A stretch of DNA of 37,934 bases from a virus. Positions 17,320 through 31,421 of the stretch are shown here, in pieces (position 1 is the stretch's first letter; each line of letters starts with the position of its first letter). A model generated the notes under the pieces. The model was not told where the DNA came from. It made no database searches and was given only the letters and a program-made list of their open reading frames with translations. The stretch lies in the IMG/VR virus record IMGVR_UViG_3300036770_008711, positions 1-37,934 of that record, one strand, 5' to 3'. A program made the position numbers and the translations under genes.

Positions 17320-17874
17320 TTAAGCTCCTAAGCCCTGGGCCAATTCAGCGTGCGAAATGCCGATTTGGTCTGCGACTAATTTCTGGTCCGCCGTTAATGA
17401 CGCGACCGGTGATTTATCCTGTGTATCCGGCGCTTTGCGCTGTTCGGTCTGCTTTGCCGTTAAAGCCGCAACAACCGGACGGGCAGCAAGCTGTGCTGTT
17501 AATGCAGCCATGTTTTGCTTGCCGAGGCTCACCAGGTAGTCTTTTTCCGACGCCAGGATCAGCTTGCCGTCCTGCTCGGCCTGAGCAATCACTTGCTCCA
17601 CCGTCAGGCTCGCTGTGGTCGCCGTCAGCGCAGCCACCTGTGTCAGCGCAGCGTTGTACTGCGCGATGGGCACGTACTGCGACAGGTCGACATTGCCGGC
17701 TCCGGCAGATTCGAGGGTTTCGATTTTTGCAGTTAAGGCAGCAACGTTGCCGGCACTGCTTTGCAGGGTAGTCACAGCGGTCAGCGCAGCCTGGGCTTGC
17801 TCGTCAGTCAGGTTGTCGCCTGGCTTCAGAGTAATGCCCAGCTTTGCCATCAACTGGATCAGCAAATCAGACAT
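17320..17874 (-). CDS. Z: Internal-start scaffold protein (Mu Z-like)
   Basis: An in-frame ATG at 17874 inside the protease gene has a well placed ribosome binding site (GGAGA, 7 bases upstream) and begins MSDLLIQLMAKLGITLKPGD. The 184-residue product would be Ala/Leu/Gln-rich coiled coil, the composition of a scaffold. In Mu the scaffold Z is made from the same frame as protease I, giving free scaffold plus a protease fused to scaffold. The site is visible; production of the shorter protein is inferred. Confidence 0.6.
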   Translation of the reverse strand: MSDLLIQLMAKLGITLKPGDNLTDEQAQAALTAVTTLQSSAGNVAALTAKIETLESAGAGNVDLSQYVPIAQYNAALTQVAALTATTASLTVEQVIAQAEQDGKLILASEKDYLVSLGKQNMAALTAQLAARPVVAALTAKQTEQRKAPDTQDKSPVASLTADQKLVADQIGISHAELAQGLGA

Positions 17875-18432
17875 GGGTTTATCTCCGTGGGTGGGTTGTT
17901 CAAACCGAGCCACCAGAGACGCAAGCGCCTCCATACCGATGGCGCCGGGATTGTTGGTTAGCGCCGCCATCAGAATTTCTGTTGGCTCGCCGGTAGTGGT
18001 GTCATAAGGGAAAACGGCAGACAGGTAACGGTACTCTTTGGCATCAACAAAGCCCTGAGCACGTGGCGTCCATAAAGGTTTAACGTAAAGTCCCTTGCCT
18101 GGCTGATATTGAAATTCACGAAAGAAGCCAGCAGCAGGTGCTGCAATGCCAGTAGTGGCAGCGTTTAGTGTTTGATGTTCGTAATCAATCACCAGGTCAT
18201 TTTGGCGAAGTGCTGCTTTAGCAATGAGACGCGCAGCAACTTCGGCATTCATCCGCCATTTGCCACCTAGGACGTCATGCGGCCTGCCATCAACGGCAGA
18301 GAACTCGCCATCAGGCAGCAACATTTTCCAGTCATCGCCTTCGCTCAGTTCTGCCGTCAGAACGGCATAACCCAGTTGGCTAGCACTGGCAGCAGAGAGA
18401 ACGGCGATGGATAAAGCAGATTTGGAAAACAT
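17320..18432 (-). CDS. I: Head maturation protease with scaffold C-terminus (Mu I-like)
   Basis: This 370-residue protein starts with a hydrophobic Ala/Ser-rich segment. Its protease domain (about 25-165) carries LLPDGEFSAVDGR, IDYEHQT (catalytic His) and EYRYLSAVFPYD (catalytic Ser in the YLS motif). A linker follows, then a helical scaffold region (about 187-350), then a C-terminal helix that ends ISHAELAQGLGA. It cleaves scaffold and itself during prohead maturation. The start codon lies 4 bases after a terminator-like hairpin and lacks a good ribosome binding site, so translation initiation here may be weak or structure-dependent. The gene follows the DUF2971 cassette instead of G. Confidence 0.88.
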   Translation of the reverse strand: MFSKSALSIAVLSAASASQLGYAVLTAELSEGDDWKMLLPDGEFSAVDGRPHDVLGGKWRMNAEVAARLIAKAALRQNDLVIDYEHQTLNAATTGIAAPAAGFFREFQYQPGKGLYVKPLWTPRAQGFVDAKEYRYLSAVFPYDTTTGEPTEILMAALTNNPGAIGMEALASLVARFEQPTHGDKPMSDLLIQLMAKLGITLKPGDNLTDEQAQAALTAVTTLQSSAGNVAALTAKIETLESAGAGNVDLSQYVPIAQYNAALTQVAALTATTASLTVEQVIAQAEQDGKLILASEKDYLVSLGKQNMAALTAQLAARPVVAALTAKQTEQRKAPDTQDKSPVASLTADQKLVADQIGISHAELAQGLGA

Positions 18433-21658: not shown

Positions 21659-23232
21659 CAGTTACCTGCGGACACGTCAAACCGGCCTGCGACATCTGCA
21701 GCGCTTAGAGCCAACTGCATCACTTCGGCCAGCTCTGACTCATCCAGCTTGCCTTCAAGCAGCAGCAGTTGTTGCAGCAAGTCTTCCAGGCTGGTGGCAT
21801 TTGCGACCAACTCTTCAATTGGCTTAAGTAATTTGCCCATCGCCGGCGCAGCTTTTGCGCGTAGTTGGCCAGCCAGTTGGTCGGCTAAATCCTGCTCTGG
21901 CAATTCCGCTTTCAGGCTGGCAATAGCCATGGTCAGTGCGGCAGCTTTATCTTTTGCGGGTACCGCTGGTGCGGCCGGAGTCTGTGCGCCCAGCACCGGC
22001 TCGTCGTTTTCGGGCAGCGGAATAGACAATTTTTGGTGCGCCCAGGCAGTTGGGATCTTCATGCCGGCATTGGCCAAAGCTGGCAACGCTTCACTGAACA
22101 GTTTGATATCTTCGGCTTCCTCGATATCAAATTTCAGCTGCGGCATTCGGCGCGGGTCGCCGGTGTACGATTTGCCGTTTAGCATGTGCATTGGCCACAG
22201 TAAATCGCGGTTCAGCGTGCTGGCCAGTTGGCGCAGGTCATGATTTCGGATATCAAGCCGCACCTCATTGTGCACATTCCCCAGAGCCTGGCTGCCGGTA
22301 CTGTCGACTTGTGCTGTTAATGTCTGGCCCAAAATAACCTTGGACTGTACGCGCTCACACCAGGACATCATGGTCATAAACGGATCGCCGCCGCCCTTCG
22401 CCGCTTCGACAAAGTCCATTTCCATGCCTTTGGGCATAATGCCGGCGCTGTTGTGCCCAACACTCCAGACCGCCTGCAGCAGCCGGTTCTTTTCATCATC
22501 ACTGGCGCCGGCCGGATATTTACCAATCCGGATCGGAATACCGTAAATCTCTAAAAACTCAGCCAGGTCTCGCACCGAATAATTCTTAAAGATAAATGGC
22601 CAGGCTAATTGGCGGATCAAACCAGTGCGAGCGACATAACCACTTTTGGCGGCGTGGCGATGCTGGATCCAGCCGAACTGCGCCAGCGCTTCACCTTCGG
22701 CTGTGCCGTTACGTAACACCAGCTGATCCTGATTGTGTGGAGACAGTTGGAACCAGGTGGCTGGCCTGTGTTGAAAATCCGCCGGCAAGCGAAAGTCGTT
22801 ATAGCGCTCCCAGTGAAACTCCAGATTACTAAAGCCCTTTAAAATACCGTCGGCCATATTGAAGATCACATCTTCAAAGTTGGGGGTATCAGCCAGCACA
22901 TCGTTGTACGTGGCCGCGTCTTTCTTTTCCTGGGCACTGGCGTTGCGTGGCGGTTCAATGCGATACGGCACACTGGTCAATGCCATGCGGCGCTTAAACA
23001 GCTCGGCATAAATGTGGCCGTCCTTTTCCTCAACATCCTCTGCCAGGTAACACTGCGCCAGTAAGTTGCCCTGCTCTGCATCGGTCATAATGGCGGCCAG
23101 CGTCATCGGCGTTAAGCCGCGGCTTGGATGTTCGGCGAACTCCCGGCGCAACTGCAGAATACGAGGGCTGTTATCGGTCTGTTTTTGTTTCTCGCGCACC
23201 CGGTACATGGTGCCGTTTTTATCTGTTTGCAT
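21658..23232 (-). CDS. Portal protein, DUF935 (Mu gp29-like)
   Basis: Portal of the DUF935 type. From the ATG at 23232 it has 524 residues; this start makes a TAATG overlap with the terminase stop and has AGGA 9 bases upstream, while an upstream ATG at 23241 is also possible. Typical features are SRGLTPMTLAAIMTDAEQG, a helix-rich core with LEFHWER, IYGIPIRIGKYPAGA and GSQALGNVHNEVR, and a long acidic/Ala-rich C-terminal region. It forms the dodecameric portal through which DNA is packaged and is followed by F as in Mu. Confidence 0.92.
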   Translation of the reverse strand: MQTDKNGTMYRVREKQKQTDNSPRILQLRREFAEHPSRGLTPMTLAAIMTDAEQGNLLAQCYLAEDVEEKDGHIYAELFKRRMALTSVPYRIEPPRNASAQEKKDAATYNDVLADTPNFEDVIFNMADGILKGFSNLEFHWERYNDFRLPADFQHRPATWFQLSPHNQDQLVLRNGTAEGEALAQFGWIQHRHAAKSGYVARTGLIRQLAWPFIFKNYSVRDLAEFLEIYGIPIRIGKYPAGASDDEKNRLLQAVWSVGHNSAGIMPKGMEMDFVEAAKGGGDPFMTMMSWCERVQSKVILGQTLTAQVDSTGSQALGNVHNEVRLDIRNHDLRQLASTLNRDLLWPMHMLNGKSYTGDPRRMPQLKFDIEEAEDIKLFSEALPALANAGMKIPTAWAHQKLSIPLPENDEPVLGAQTPAAPAVPAKDKAAALTMAIASLKAELPEQDLADQLAGQLRAKAAPAMGKLLKPIEELVANATSLEDLLQQLLLLEGKLDESELAEVMQLALSAADVAGRFDVSAGN

Positions 23233-24935
23233 TACCAACATCCTGATGAGGATTGCATCTCTGAGGGAGAGTCTTTGTTTTGTGTAAGGGCTGTAATAGG
23301 GGTGAATTCGATTTCACCGCCTTCCATCCAGCTAGCACGCACGGCCATGGCAAGAGCTACTGCAAAGTCACCGTGGCGTTGCTGGCCATCTGTGCCTTTG
23401 CCGGAGCCTTTTTCGATTTGTGGCACGCCGTTTTTCAGCTGGATTTTGCAGAGGTCGTCAAGAATGTCCTGGTGGCGCGGGATCTCGATAAAGCCATCGT
23501 CAAACTCGGCTTTAAGCTTGGGCATCCACTCGCGATACCAGGTTTGGCTCAGCATCACGCAGTCGACCATTTCAGTGCCAAACTTCAGCCTGGCAGTTTC
23601 AGCCAGATAGCCACCGTTACCGGTGCTATCAAATGCCGCCCCGGTAAAACGTGGCAGGCGTTCCATGACGTACATCAGGATTTGGCGCTGAGCTTCATAG
23701 GTGCCGTTGGAGATCTCAACTACAAAAGGCACCCGTTTGGTCAGGTCTGGCCGGATGGTCAGCGGTACAAATACTGACAAGTCGCCTTTGCGGGCAAAGT
23801 CTTCACCGAATACATGCCGGCAGTTCGCCGGCAGCTGCTCCAGCAAAAACTGCACATTGTTTTCCAGCCATTCACTGACAATACGCTGCCGGTCTGCATC
23901 GGATAACAGCTCAAAGTCTTTGGGCGCGGTAAAACGTACGATTGGAATACTGTGGTCTTTGACCATGGCCCGCTCGATGAGCGTGCGTTTTAAATAGATT
24001 CCGGCGCCGGCTTTCGGCACACAGAAATATTCTTCAAGCGCATCTTCTTCGGTGGCCGTGTCTTTAAGCAGACCTTCCTTCCACTCGATTTCTTTTTCCA
24101 GGCTCCAGCTGAGCTTTCGTGTCTGGCAGATGCGCTGATACAAGCCGTCGCGGCAGGCATCGTCGAGCGTGATGGTATGGATTGAGTAGCGTTTTTTGCC
24201 GGCGCGGCTGTCCTGAACTAGCTGGTTAAACAGGTTTTCAATGCCGTTATGAGTACTGATTAAACGGACTTTACTGCCCCACATGGTCAGTGCCAGAGCG
24301 GCTTTTAATACTTCGGCCAGACGTTCGTGGAATGCGGCTTCGTCGATGGTGACGTTACCCTGCATACCGCGAAGGTTCGATGGGTTGGAGCTTAATGCCT
24401 GAATTTTATAGCCGCTGGCAAAATGCACGACAAAGGTCAGGATCTCTTTGCCTTCCTGGCCATCATCAACAAATAGCTCTTCCTGAATTTCTGAGCCGGC
24501 TTTGTTAAAGACCCGCGCCCACATGGCCGCCGCTTCGATAAACTCGCGGGCCATCTCTTTATTGCTGCCCACATAGAAATGGTTGCAGCCGCCATCCTGG
24601 CGCCGGGTGGATGCACATAACACCGCATCACAAGCTTCTGCCCAGGTAATGCCGGTTCGCCGGCTTTTCTCGGCAATTTTTAATGGGCTTTCGTCGGCTA
24701 TCCAGCGTTTCTGATACCCCAGCAAGACTTCACCAGGATCAAACAGACTGAGCTGGCCGGCGTTGTGATCAGCAACAGCCTGCGCGTTCTGCGCGGCTGT
24801 CACCTGCAGCACTGGCGCTTGGGTTGCGAGGGCTGATTGACTGGCCGGGGCTTTGGCCTGAATAGCCTGCGCCAATGGCGACAGCACCAGGCTGCTGGTC
24901 AGCACGGTCGCCTGAATGACCTTACGCAGCTTCAT
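23232..24935 (-). CDS. Terminase large subunit (Mu gp28-like) with signal-like N-terminus
   Basis: This encodes 567 residues. The ATPase part has the degenerate Walker A EKSRRTGITW (about 89-98, as in Mu gp28) and Walker B VTIDEAAF (about 195-202). The nuclease part contains GEDFARKGD and AAFDSTGNGGY with acidic catalytic candidates. It packages phage DNA together with the DUF3486 protein. The first 30 residues are odd: MKLRK, a hydrophobic run and LAQA-IQA, the shape of a Sec signal peptide, followed by an Ala/Gln-rich linker to residue 65. The ATG lies in a TGATG overlap with the upstream gene, which supports this start. Confidence 0.9.
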   Translation of the reverse strand: MKLRKVIQATVLTSSLVLSPLAQAIQAKAPASQSALATQAPVLQVTAAQNAQAVADHNAGQLSLFDPGEVLLGYQKRWIADESPLKIAEKSRRTGITWAEACDAVLCASTRRQDGGCNHFYVGSNKEMAREFIEAAAMWARVFNKAGSEIQEELFVDDGQEGKEILTFVVHFASGYKIQALSSNPSNLRGMQGNVTIDEAAFHERLAEVLKAALALTMWGSKVRLISTHNGIENLFNQLVQDSRAGKKRYSIHTITLDDACRDGLYQRICQTRKLSWSLEKEIEWKEGLLKDTATEEDALEEYFCVPKAGAGIYLKRTLIERAMVKDHSIPIVRFTAPKDFELLSDADRQRIVSEWLENNVQFLLEQLPANCRHVFGEDFARKGDLSVFVPLTIRPDLTKRVPFVVEISNGTYEAQRQILMYVMERLPRFTGAAFDSTGNGGYLAETARLKFGTEMVDCVMLSQTWYREWMPKLKAEFDDGFIEIPRHQDILDDLCKIQLKNGVPQIEKGSGKGTDGQQRHGDFAVALAMAVRASWMEGGEIEFTPITALTQNKDSPSEMQSSSGCW

Positions 24936-27652: not shown

Positions 27653-27695
27653 GGCCTAATCTGCGGTTGGTCATTGGTGACCGCAGATTAAGGCC
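27653..27695 (-). other. Large inverted repeat before lysis genes
   Basis: A 15-bp stem GGCCTAATCTGCGGT / ACCGCAGATTAAGGCC (one bulge) with a 12-base loop lies directly before the DUF5675 start codon at 27651. There is no T tract on either side. It marks the boundary between the accessory island and the lysis operon and could control translation of the lysis gene or stop transcripts from the island. Confidence 0.75.
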
Positions 27696-27702
27696 ATAAA
27701 AG

Positions 27703-27999
27703 TTAACGCGTTAATTCAAGTGGTTTACTAACTAACACAAAATTCGAATCATCGAATTGAAATGAAATTGGGTCTGTGTCGAGCTTGATCAGTCTACGTC
27801 CGCAACCCGTTTCAAAATCAATTTCAAATTTTTCTAAGACAGATGATTCAGGTATTTCATAAGTACCACCTCGTTCCGCAATAGCAAGAGACTTGTGAAT
27901 TTCTTCACCACTAACAAAACTCGCATTTACCGAGAAGACTTCATAATCAACACCTGAAGGATGTTCAACAAATATACCCAATAGCTTTCTTTCTAACAT
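27703..27999 (-). CDS. Hypothetical 98-residue accessory protein
   Basis: This encodes 98 residues with a good ribosome binding site (AAGGA, 9 bases upstream of the ATG). The protein is mostly beta-type and acidic, with no transmembrane helix, zinc motif or recognised family. It begins 25 bp after the terminator of the small zinc-ribbon gene, so it depends on read-through or an unrecognised promoter. It is AT-rich compared with the phage core, in line with an accessory origin. Confidence 0.65.
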   Translation of the reverse strand: MLERKLLGIFVEHPSGVDYEVFSVNASFVSGEEIHKSLAIAERGGTYEIPESSVLEKFEIDFETGCGRRLIKLDTDPISFQFDDSNFVLVSKPLELTR

Positions 28000-28010
28000 A
28001 TCTTATATCC

Positions 28011-28046
28011 TTAAAAAATAAAAAATGCCCCAGAATTTGGGGCATT
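28011..28046 (-). terminator. Intrinsic terminator of zinc-ribbon gene
   Basis: The stem AATGCCCCA / TGGGGCATT (5-base loop, 28024-28046) is followed on the minus strand by TTTTTATTTTTT. This is a textbook rho-independent terminator, 20 bp after the stop codon of the 47-residue gene. Confidence 0.9.
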
Positions 28047-28065
28047 GAATTAGTAAAAGCGTTAA

Positions 28066-28209
28066 TTAATCGTGTTTGCAACACTTGCACAGAGGGATGA
28101 CAAATACTGACCGATTTTTCGGAAAGTAAACTTTGCCATTTTTCTTCACAAACTTCGTGAAGATAACCTCGCAAGTGTTACCACACTTAGGACAGTAACC
28201 TGTCTTCAT
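28066..28209 (-). CDS. 47-residue zinc-ribbon protein
   Basis: This short gene starts with ATG at 28209, with GAGGG 8 bases upstream, and ends in TAA at 28066. The protein starts MKTGYCPKCGNTC, has a Lys/Phe-rich middle and ends in CKCCKHD, giving two cysteine clusters (CxxCxxxxC and CxCC) about 27 residues apart that would bind zinc. It is followed by a strong terminator and preceded by the small-RNA intergenic region, so it is a monocistronic accessory gene. No function can be assigned; zinc-ribbon miniproteins often bind nucleic acid or RNA polymerase. Confidence 0.75.
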   Translation of the reverse strand: MKTGYCPKCGNTCEVIFTKFVKKNGKVYFPKNRSVFVIPLCKCCKHD

Positions 28210-28250
28210 GTGATGACCCTCAAAGAGTCCGCAAAAAAGAACCCACTTTC

Positions 28251-28279
28251 TTGCAGTTTTAATAGAGAGCCGCTACAAT
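28251..28279 (+). promoter_or_regulatory. Promoter candidate for the small RNA
   Basis: On the + strand TTGCAG (28251-28256) and TACAAT (28274-28279) are separated by exactly 17 bp. The -10 matches 5/6 and the -35 matches 3/6. A transcript would start near 28285 and run into the terminator at 28366-28397. Confidence 0.5.
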
Positions 28280-28284
28280 ATTCC

Positions 28285-28397
28285 ACGCAAATTTGAAATG
28301 TGCAGCGGGGGTTACTCCCTTACTGTATGAAGCATGCGATGCGCTAACATCGTTCAGCTTCAGCAAAAGCCTCTCGCTAAAGAGGCTTTTATTTTTT
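28285..28397 (+). ncRNA. Candidate small RNA, about 113 nt
   Basis: The interval has a promoter-like sequence at the right distance, no sizeable ORF, and an intrinsic terminator at its end. Internal stems are visible (GGGGGTTACTCCC region; CGATG cgctaa CATCG at about 28337-28352). It runs opposite to the surrounding phage genes and ends over the 3' end of the ImmA-type gene. Its place between Xre-ImmA and a small zinc-ribbon gene recalls phage-encoded regulatory RNAs. No similarity to a known RNA family is recognised. Confidence 0.5.
28366..28397. terminator. Bidirectional intrinsic terminator
   Basis: The stem AAAGCCTCT / AGAGGCTTT has a short loop, with TTTTATTTTTT on the + strand side and TTTTGC on the minus strand side. 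It can end both the + strand small RNA and the minus strand Xre-ImmA transcript, whose last stop codon is at 28389. Confidence 0.85.
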
Positions 28398-28934
28398 CTT
28401 CATGTCTCTTATTTTCATCGCTGCAGCAGTAGCACTTGTGCCAAATTTACTAGCAACTTCAGATGCAGACTTGTTTGGGTCAACCAATCGTGAATCCATC
28501 AAAAGCTCGCTTGCAAAAACGTCTGCTTGCCACTCACTATCCTCGTATATCTCATGCTTCGGTATTTCGCCCCTAGCATAGCTTACAGGCTCTTGATCCT
28601 TGTGAAGTAGCAGATGACCTAGTTCATGAGCCAATGTAAATCGACAGTGTCCGTCACCTTTTGCGGCAAGGTCATAGACACTCTGTCTGATTTGTATAGA
28701 GTCATCGTCTGGCTTGGTTTGAGCTTCCATTCCAAGTAATTCCCAGTCGTCAACTATTTCAAACTCTAAAAACCCCATATCTTGAAGAAGCTCATATAGA
28801 GCACAGATATTAATTTTTTCGCTTTTAATCCCTACACTATCTCGAAAGGTTTGTGCCACTCGTTGAACAGCGACTTTCCTCAGTGGCTTTACTTTGTGTC
28901 CAAGTTTTCTGTGCTGTTGGCTCAAATTAATCAC
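28389..28934 (-). CDS. ImmA/IrrE-type metallopeptidase (DUF955)
   Basis: This 181-residue protein has the zincin motif H103-E-L-G-H107 in FTLAHELGHLLLHKD, and a third ligand region EWQADVFASELLM (E134), the ImmA/IrrE (DUF955) signature. The C-terminal helices (SASEVASKFGTSATAAAMKI) are the usual tail. In ICEBs1, phi105 and related systems ImmA cleaves the repressor encoded next to it. It overlaps the upstream Xre gene by 8 bases and shares its promoter, so the two form one regulatory or toxin-antitoxin-like pair. It is not part of Mu. Confidence 0.88.
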   Translation of the reverse strand: MINLSQQHRKLGHKVKPLRKVAVQRVAQTFRDSVGIKSEKINICALYELLQDMGFLEFEIVDDWELLGMEAQTKPDDDSIQIRQSVYDLAAKGDGHCRFTLAHELGHLLLHKDQEPVSYARGEIPKHEIYEDSEWQADVFASELLMDSRLVDPNKSASEVASKFGTSATAAAMKIRDMKKK

Positions 28935-29286
28935 CTTCTAGTAGTTGCTTCAGTCTTTGCTGCTGCTCAGAGGTCAAATGTCTGTACTTCCGAGCAAATG
29001 CCATAACGACCTCCCTCTCATTGGGAGTGCTTTCCTTAAGATCTATTTTTACCTGAGGCTGACTTTCGCTTGCTATACGGTGCAACTCAGCCCGCTCCTG
29101 AGGGGAAATGCCAAAACGGACTACCAGCTTGTCAATAAAGCTCTCTGGGATATTTTTTTTCCCTAATTCAACTGCTGAGATATAAGACGAACTAACGCCT
29201 AATGCATCAGCCAAATCTTTTAAGATCATGCCATGGTCTATTCTTAGTTTTCTTATGTAACGACCAAATTGGGTAACCTTCAGCAT
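28927..29286 (-). CDS. Xre-family repressor partner of ImmA
   Basis: From the ATG at 29286 the protein has 119 residues; the start is chosen because GGAG lies 6 bases upstream, and the upstream Met codons lie in the promoter. Residues about 8-60 form an HTH_3 domain (MILKDLADALGVSSSYISAVE-type, here with GKKNIPESF). The rest is helical with PNEREVVMAFARKYRHL and ends in LLEGD. It probably represses its own promoter through the palindrome at 29305-29321 and is the substrate or partner of the ImmA protein. Confidence 0.85.
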   Translation of the reverse strand: MLKVTQFGRYIRKLRIDHGMILKDLADALGVSSSYISAVELGKKNIPESFIDKLVVRFGISPQERAELHRIASESQPQVKIDLKESTPNEREVVMAFARKYRHLTSEQQQRLKQLLEGD

Positions 29287-29304
29287 ACGTATCTCCATTT
29301 TTAA

Positions 29305-29321
29305 AGCAGAATATATCTGCT
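29305..29321. promoter_or_regulatory. Palindromic operator for Xre
   Basis: AGCAGA ATATA TCTGCT is a perfect 6-5-6 inverted repeat located between the -10 element and the xre start codon, where bound repressor would block initiation. It is the clearest dyad in this intergenic region. Confidence 0.7.
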
Positions 29322-29329
29322 CATCTTCA

Positions 29330-29358
29330 AATCTATCATTGAAAGTGAAATTTGTCAA
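29330..29358 (-). promoter_or_regulatory. Sigma70 promoter of xre-immA
   Basis: TTGACA (29358-29353, consensus) and TAGATT (29335-29330) are separated by 17 bp on the minus strand, directly upstream of the operator and the Xre gene. This gives the accessory pair expression independent of the phage middle and late promoters, for example in the lysogen. Confidence 0.8.
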
Positions 29359-29383
29359 CCTTTTTTTTGTTCTTTCGCTGAAC

Positions 29384-29806
29384 CTATAACAACTTCATCT
29401 GACGCCGACCCCGTTCAGTTAAAGTCTGTTCCCGCACTATGTGATAAATCTGAATCGCCGTCAGACCATACTGGCGGGCCAGCTGCTCTGTGTTACCGCC
29501 ACGGTGTTGCTGGTAGATCCGGATATTGCGAAGCTCCAGCGCCAGCTTGTCGTTGCGCGGTAAATACAGCTGCATGCCGCCGAAGTAGTTCGCCATACAA
29601 ATCACCAGGTGCTCTGCCAGCCGCTCTGGATCCTTGGCGCCTTTGCTACGCAGCTCACTGGTAAACAGCGCCATCAGACTTTGCAGCATCGCCGGAATAC
29701 GTTTCACCACATCCTGACGCTGATCGTCCGGCAAATTCTCCAGCTGCTGCAGTAAATCCTGCAGCTCTTCTGGCATCGAAAAGGCATCTAACTGCTGTTC
29801 GCTCAT
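29384..29806 (-). CDS. mor: Mor-family middle transcription activator
   Basis: This 140-residue protein is of the Mor/C family. It has an N-terminal acidic helical dimerisation part (MPEELQDLLQQLENLPDDQR-like), then YLPRND, then the C-terminal HTH with RIYQQHRGGNTEQLARQYGL and IYHIVREQTLTERGRRQ. In Mu, Mor activates the middle promoter, from which C and then the late genes are expressed. No separate C gene is visible here, so this activator may control the late genes directly. Four-base overlap with the upstream gene. Confidence 0.88.
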   Translation of the reverse strand: MSEQQLDAFSMPEELQDLLQQLENLPDDQRQDVVKRIPAMLQSLMALFTSELRSKGAKDPERLAEHLVICMANYFGGMQLYLPRNDKLALELRNIRIYQQHRGGNTEQLARQYGLTAIQIYHIVREQTLTERGRRQMKLL

Positions 29807-30848: not shown

Positions 30849-30863
30849 AACTGCTTACCTCTT

Positions 30864-30920
30864 CGCTGCTCATCAGTACCCAGCCACGACGCTGGATAGA
30901 CGCCAATTGGCGTTTCGCTT
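30864..30920. repeat. Composite repeat, copy 1 (gemA leader)
   Basis: Bases 30864-30901 are identical to 31349-31386 (38/38). They are followed by a perfect palindrome CGCCAATTGGCG (30901-30912) and GTTTCGCTT (30912-30920), which is also shared with copy 2. The copy ends just before the ribosome binding site of gemA. The 38-mer contains its own small stem, CCAGC/GCTGG. Confidence 0.95.
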
Positions 30921-31338: not shown

Positions 31339-31421
31339 TGAATGCTCCCGCTGCTCATCAGTACCCAGCCACGACGCTGGATAGACAGCCCGGTCATCAA
31401 TACCGGACTGTTTCGCTTCAC
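31335..31421 (-). CDS. Possible 28-residue coupled mini-gene
   Basis: Starting from GTG at 31421, which overlaps the stop codon of the upstream gene by GTGA, a 28-codon ORF runs through repeat copy 2 and ends in a TGA that overlaps the ATG of the next gene (ATGA). The peptide contains SIQRRGWVLMSS, encoded by the repeat; copy 1 encodes the same residues in the frame that ends the cargo gene. Two perfect coupling junctions suggest that ribosomes really cross this leader. No ribosome binding site of its own is visible. Confidence 0.4.
   Translation of the reverse strand: MKRNSPVLMTGLSIQRRGWVLMSSGSIQ
31349..31418. repeat. Composite repeat, copy 2 (cargo gene leader)
   Basis: The same 38-mer as copy 1 (31349-31386) is followed by a different dyad (CAGCCCGGT / ACCGGACTG, 7-base loop, 31386-31410) and then the same GTTTCGCTT (31410-31418). 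The copy ends just before the ribosome binding site of the cargo gene. The two copies are 485 bp apart. Confidence 0.95.

Follow-up and report, generated by a model that had tools for sequence, protein, structure and literature searches.

Introduction

Antisense RNAs that act on structured mRNA leaders are a well-known kind of regulatory device. In the I-complex plasmids, Inc RNA of ColIb-P9 (RNAI in IncB/O and IncK) competes with a leader pseudoknot needed for repZ translation, and loop changes set the specificity, as described in PMC10724649 and in the references given there. The pIP501 RNAII/RNAIII and bsrE/SR5 pairs use two loop pairs for antisense recognition, and U-turn loop motifs mark the contacts between antisense and target RNAs and allow fast contact (PMC6562991). 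Phages encode antisense RNAs as well. The sar RNA of phage P22 lies between two genes of one operon. This small antisense RNA represses translation of the antirepressor gene ant (PMC13397905). Lastly, the TisB/IstR-1, SymE/SymR and RalR/RalA systems each combine a small protein, a long 5′ leader and an antisense RNA.

The phage locus described here shares with the last group its small protein, long leader and antisense RNA; in contrast to those proteins, its zinc-ribbon protein is not hydrophobic, and a toxin role for it is conjectural. It resembles the I-complex systems in a predicted kissing contact through a UU-starting loop. It differs from them in being carried by a phage and not a plasmid, in having no replication gene and in its putative target, the zinc-ribbon gene. 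The contact would be made by two hairpins with identical loops (twin loops below), which are not the pseudoknot partner; that partner is an internal loop of one arm of the leader (arm 1). No conserved leader peptide of the repY type was found. As for P22 sar, no sequence relation was found, and the small RNA proposed here, unlike sar, ends short of the ribosome-binding site of its target, whose leader has a long-range pairing. Identical, co-changing loops, as seen here, are not described for pIP501 or bsrE/SR5 in the portion of PMC6562991 cited.

Genomic setting

The window, by which we mean the whole stretch analyzed (37,934 nt), is a virus contig of 37.9 kb whose genes are those of a Mu-like phage: GemA, Mor and DUF3164 are encoded, as are a transposase and head and tail proteins (the transposase and the structural genes were recognized by eye). 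The antisense element sits downstream of Mor, at a position where near relatives, collected through Mor (94–96% identity), exchange genes. The interval between Mor and a conserved terminator preceding DUF5675 holds an Xre-ImmA pair and a zinc-ribbon ORF in four relatives (L004, L005, L006 and L008) and another cassette in two (L003 and L007). The protein genes of the module in the window are:

28066–28209, minus strand: 47-aa zinc-ribbon ORF, unannotated; 64–70% identical in near relatives; dN/dS 0.07
28389–28934, minus strand: ImmA/IrrE (M78) metallopeptidase, CapP-like; Pfam PF06114, E 6e-11; PADLOC capP, E 1.5e-18
28927–29358, minus strand: Xre-type repressor, CapH-like; Pfam HTH_31, E 2.1e-11; PADLOC capH, E 4e-11

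The HTH-ImmA pair resembles, by its PADLOC capH and capP matches, the CapH-CapP pair, in which single-stranded DNA triggers repressor cleavage and derepression (PMC10904395). In L004 and L008, ImmA is only 28% identical, yet the intergenic stretch can be aligned and the zinc-ribbon ORF is 64–70% identical. Judged from its sequence, this ORF is a real gene under purifying selection, with a median dN/dS of 0.07 over 295 pairs of homologs. The protein has 43–49 aa across elements, with conserved CxxC and CxC cysteines, and is modeled as a Cys/Lys-rich, all-beta protein that is not hydrophobic, unlike the usual type I toxin. It reached no family in the family libraries at the family's own cut-off, and a fold search with the model found no solved fold at E ≤ 0.001.

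In nearly all loci, 149–235 nt separate the end of the gene just upstream from the zinc-ribbon start. This upstream gene falls into at least four unrelated types, namely ImmA, the gene in third place of a HicAB operon, a 163–209-aa protein ending in DLTxxEAxRI, and a 304-aa protein. At L068 (4388–4828), a 146-aa protein without a Pfam or PADLOC match stands third after HicA-HicB, as it does in related loci. SOS-type genes are often found near the module; in Enterobacter wuhouensis (L060, 2727–6450) these are a DinI-like gene, an HMCES/YedK-like gene (by eye) and a UmuC-type polymerase gene, and at L058 a DinI gene is present.

Other features of these phages were noted on the way. The swap site spans 27692–29384 in the window and lies at the same place in L003–L008; in L003 it holds a 482-aa ParB-like protein and a DNA adenine methylase-like protein (by eye). 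Two type II hammerhead ribozymes are arranged as a direct repeat around about 485 bp in the window (30860–30920 and 31345–31418, minus strand; 62.4 and 61.5 bits) and likewise in L003. Since the ribozyme is single-copy in L004, L006, L007 and L008, the intervening sequence looks like an optional ribozyme-bounded cassette. A terminase-like and a Mu I protease-like protein (23232–24935 and 17320–18432, minus strand; by eye) have first residues, about 25 in each, that look like a signal peptide, which is odd for such proteins.

A predicted antisense RNA

The earlier note had proposed a + strand transcription unit, opposite to all neighbors, made of a promoter with 17-bp spacing, a stretch of about 113 nt with stems and no real ORF, and an intrinsic terminator. 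Its parts, with the RNA start at about 28286 taken from the promoter position, are:

28251–28279, + strand: antisense promoter, −35 TTGCAG (28251–28256), 17 nt, −10 TACAAT (28274–28279); conserved in 58/62 elements
28286–28397, + strand: predicted antisense small RNA of about 112 nt, from promoter and terminator; z −4.0
28329–28361, + strand: hairpin 2 of the small RNA, from the fold; loop CGCTAA (28342–28347), the same as the terminator loop
28365–28397, + strand: intrinsic terminator; loop CGCTAA (28375–28380); T-rich tail overlapping the immA 3′ end

From one sequence, the promoter does not rise above chance, because it matches the consensus at 8/12 positions, below the threshold of a consensus scan that listed the terminator and missed the promoter, and because the same scan found 4 promoter-like sites against 4.0 expected. 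Folding cannot choose the strand either: the + strand folds at −40 kcal/mol with a z of −4.0 against shuffles, and the opposite strand folds equally well (z −4.3). Comparison therefore had to decide.

We collected 62 distinct elements by searches with the 47-aa zinc-ribbon protein. The pattern TTGNNN-17-TANNNT is present on the antisense strand in 58 of these 62, against a mean of 2.1 and a maximum of 7 in shuffled regions, and spacings other than 17 nt occur in 0–4 elements each. This conserved geometry is what raises the promoter above chance, and the promoter of the earlier note is indeed at its place. A promoter-like + strand site is also kept in a Pantoea group (L066, L091–L098) and in a KCKQ group (L081, L085, L088, L093; 16-nt spacing); the members of these two groups that were tested do not match the leader covariance model described below.

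The terminator stem-loop (28365–28390) is followed by ATTTTTTC. Across 19 distinct stems, reading the + strand gives nine G·U wobbles and reading the opposite strand gives none, and in most elements a T tract follows the stem in the + direction only. All neighboring genes lie on the minus strand, as first described. The wobbles of hairpin 2 are strand-neutral (11 versus 12). Predicted lengths in homologs are 94–126 nt. No conserved ORF was found in the 113-nt stretch; the sole + frame listed there (28293–28493) leaves it to extend into immA.

The small RNA does overlap the 3′ end of immA by a few bases (28389–28397, 9 nt, at the stop codon). ImmA is probably not the relevant target, given this 9-nt overlap and the 28% identity of ImmA between relatives that keep the RNA. 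The more probable target is the structured leader of the zinc-ribbon gene, the next one downstream. The note had also named relatives that keep only the terminator as evidence that would speak against a regulatory RNA; those collected here keep promoter, spacing, hairpins and terminator, and the sequence comparison supports a + strand phage regulatory RNA, antisense to phage genes, as the best reading.

The structured leader of the zinc-ribbon gene

On the minus strand, the stretch between immA and the zinc-ribbon gene is predicted to form an mRNA leader with the following parts:

28210–28388, minus strand: structured leader of the zinc-ribbon mRNA, putative target of the small RNA; covariation; z −4.3
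28301–28319, minus strand: arm 1 (GGGAGTAACCCCCGCTGCA), pairing with arm 2; its AACCC (28309–28313) pairs with the hairpin 3 loop
28265–28277, minus strand: arm 2 (TGTAGCGGCTCTC); 18 sense wobbles versus 4 on the other strand in the arm pairs
28231–28254, minus strand: hairpin 3, directly preceding the ribosome-binding site, with the loop TGGGTT (28240–28245); covarying stem and loop pairing

Arm 1 (GGAG..ACCGCUA) lies wholly within the antisense RNA. Arm 2 (UAGCGGU..CUCC), read on the + strand, corresponds to the spacer plus a portion of the −10 box of the antisense promoter and lies outside the small RNA, so the helix between the arms is possible in the sense RNA only. Its wobbles favor the sense strand, 18 versus 4, in a count where the arm 1 match was picked by a score slightly favoring sense wobbles and its location was the same in nearly all elements. 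A long-range pairing joins AACCCA of arm 1 with UGGGUU in the loop of hairpin 3, adjoining the ribosome-binding site. It covaries, the variants being AAUCCA/UGGAUU, AAUUCA/UGAAUU, AAUCUA/UAGAUU, AACUCA/UGAGUU and CACCCA/UGGGUG, and its score of 14.07 is above all 5000 re-dealings of the partners (maximum 13.43).

In a 38-sequence alignment, the leader structure is 89.5% paired, 14 pairs are changed on both sides, and 48 doubly changed cells are seen against 15.7 in shuffles; it lies above 500 of 500 shuffles on every measure. Slid versions fall below it without exception, and the margin is wide for cells paired, for doubly changed cells and for the covariation score. The window row is off by one column at GGAG in this alignment, and the window pairs were set by hand (CCGCUGCA/UGUAGCGG, GAG/CUC and AACCC/GGGUU). 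A covariance model of the leader recovers two elements absent from its build (E 2e-5). A further pseudoknot, GUGU/ACAC, is weakly supported (72.8% paired).

Several other candidates were considered. A LexA-box-like site, CTG-N10-CAG, is present at hairpin 3 in most relatives, where it recalls the TisB/IstR-1, SymE/SymR and RalR/RalA group, and is absent in the window; a LexA box fits most enteric elements, and the Rheinheimera-type elements, the window among them, have another hairpin with the same loop. A resemblance of GGAUUACCUCC to the 3′ end of 16S rRNA was dropped because this stretch varies and is compensated by arm 2. In some relatives, an open frame (..RNLYGFTG..) spans hairpin 3; in the window, that frame holds a stop. 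The elements showed no conserved promoter from which the sense mRNA could start, and read-through from upstream is therefore assumed.

Twin loops

Hairpin 2 and the terminator carry the same 6–7-nt loop in most elements, despite differing stems. Both are CGCTAA in the window; CGTCAA, TTGACG, TTAGCG, TGCCAA, TTGGCG and CGGCAAA occur in other elements, with further twin loops elsewhere (TTCTCAG, TTAGAG, TTTGCAG, TTCGAAG and TTCCTAG). At least 5 nt are common to both loops in 18 of 26 distinct loop pairs, a count in which two more pairs were miscalled by the script, compared with a mean of 1.9 and a maximum of 8 in shuffles. The loops change jointly between phages: of the near relatives L004 and L008, one has the reverse complement of the other's sequence in both loops. 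They are unequal within the element in L064, L074, L114, L082–L090 and L136.

When one or the other strand is read, each of the 13 loop kinds begins with UU (chance 12% each), and 12 of 13 have a U-turn motif, YUNR, near the loop start (chance 19%). The pattern is that of kissing loops and, by this analogy, suggests that the twin loops kiss their complements. The loop UUGGCG of L065 is the target motif of ColIb-P9 Inc RNA, going by a title cited in PMC10724649.

Distribution and novelty

Elements were found in prophages of Rheinheimera, E. coli, Enterobacter, Klebsiella, Pantoea, Providencia, Vibrio and others. Searches with the zinc-ribbon protein gave 46 and then 66 viral loci, plus 10 loci in named genomes (Enterobacter, Atlantibacter, Providencia, Rheinheimera, Vibrio, Pantoea, Kosakonia and Kluyvera), and most of the viral loci hold the module within prophage DNA. 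The element is accessory: it occurs in 56 of 5426 complete E. coli genomes, chromosomal in every case, and the leader model matched, with strict filters, 2 of 394 genomes sampled from the order of Rheinheimera pacifica, namely R. pacifica itself and one partial match. In R. pacifica, the module adjoins a TniQ gene and an Abi-like gene. At L062 (4466–5130, Providencia rustigianii), leader and zinc-ribbon gene are duplicated in tandem with identical loops, the antisense promoter match being kept in the second unit and lost in the first; since the loops are shared and the first unit has no promoter match, one RNA may serve both leaders.

An Rfam search at gathering and permissive thresholds gave nothing credible and no family above its curated threshold, querying phage and plasmid DNA with the element gave no match, and an exact-pattern scan of viral contigs gave none. 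We found no description of the element in the open-licence literature and no annotation that describes it. As far as tested, the phage family, the twin-loop rule and the zinc-ribbon protein are new. As a separate observation, a C4 antisense RNA (Rfam RF01695, 80.9 bits) lies near a distant ImmA relative in L002 (2210–2296, minus strand).

Discussion

The best explanation, to which we assign a probability of about 0.7, is that a cis-encoded antisense RNA kisses the leader of the zinc-ribbon gene and blocks a fold that promotes translation. The HTH-immA operon would probably be read through into a leader of about 180 nt and the 47-aa zinc-ribbon gene. The leader would fold through arm 1/arm 2 and the long-range contact between arm 1 and the hairpin 3 loop by the ribosome-binding site, a structure that probably favors translation. 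The + strand RNA, whose promoter contains arm 2, would be complementary to arm 1 and to two hairpins upstream of it and would end at immA. First contact may be loop to loop, through the 6–7-nt UU-starting loops, from where pairing would spread into arm 1, remove the long-range pairing, much as Inc RNA acts on the repZ pseudoknot of the I-complex plasmids, and keep the zinc-ribbon protein from being made, perhaps with cleavage by RNase III. DNA damage, through HTH-ImmA derepression and read-through into the zinc-ribbon gene, is a plausible trigger. Transcription of the + strand, inhibition, the direction of the effect and read-through from upstream are what we infer; whether the leader fold activates or represses translation was judged by that analogy with repZ. 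The small RNA stops short of hairpin 3 and of the ribosome-binding site and start codon of the zinc-ribbon gene, which counts against this explanation, as do the missing sense promoter, the elements whose two loops differ, and the Pantoea and KCKQ groups. IstR-1 likewise has its binding site well upstream of the start (PMC4147584).

The same RNA mechanism is compatible with a type I toxin-antitoxin system of the RalR/RalA or SymE/SymR kind, which differs in the role of the protein: the zinc-ribbon protein would be the toxin and the small RNA its antitoxin. A small protein, a long structured leader, an antisense RNA placed off the start codon and a prophage setting all fit, genes of toxin-antitoxin systems, known or predicted, often lie next to it upstream (HicAB, Xre-ImmA), and the existence of non-membrane type I toxins such as SymE and RalR (PMC4147584) counts in favor. 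However, the protein is not hydrophobic, and neither its sequence nor its fold resembles that of a known toxin; a toxin role is possible, and we lean against it. We think it quite unlikely that the RNA is instead a trans-acting regulator whose twin loops are seeds for another phage or host mRNA. That each RNA has two identical loops, which differ between phages, would suit such seeds, as would the shared loops of the Providencia tandem units, where one RNA may serve two leaders; yet the conserved sense leader is explained by a cis target alone. The target prediction that the earlier note had called for, run within the window, gave no trans target that stood out, the best duplexes with start regions lying within the shuffled background.

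Two further readings dispense with a regulatory + strand RNA. The strong covariation of the leader could mean that only the sense strand matters, as a riboswitch-like or protein-bound leader, with the + strand promoter match a by-product of arm pairing. Yet that fold does not require the exact 17-nt spacing to TTG, the + strand T-tract terminator or the + only wobbles; the promoter and the wobble counts overturned the sense strand as the sole functional RNA, and we regard this reading as improbable. That the hairpin is an ordinary bidirectional terminator of the immA operon next to a chance promoter would agree with its position at the immA stop codon and with a single-sequence promoter scan at chance level, but the minus side lacks a T tract in most relatives and promoter and spacing are conserved, so that we hold it to be highly improbable.

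The cis-antisense reading leaves the identity of the two loops to be accounted for, and we know of no system that explains why both must be identical. One speculative proposal, which we put forward tentatively and consider unlikely, is that they serve as an identity tag: the RNA of a resident prophage would silence only those incoming or neighboring elements that have the same loop, plasmid-like incompatibility groups of phages would arise from a 6–7-nt code written twice, and the zinc-ribbon protein would be the effector released by a non-matching or induced copy.

If the main reading is true, these phages carry an undescribed mobile family of antisense RNAs joined to upstream operons of at least four unrelated kinds (Xre-ImmA, HicAB and two uncharacterized ones) and always followed by the same tiny zinc-ribbon protein, often missed by annotation. 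It would extend to temperate phages a logic known from the control of plasmid copy number, and the twin-loop code would offer a direct test of how antisense specificity evolves.
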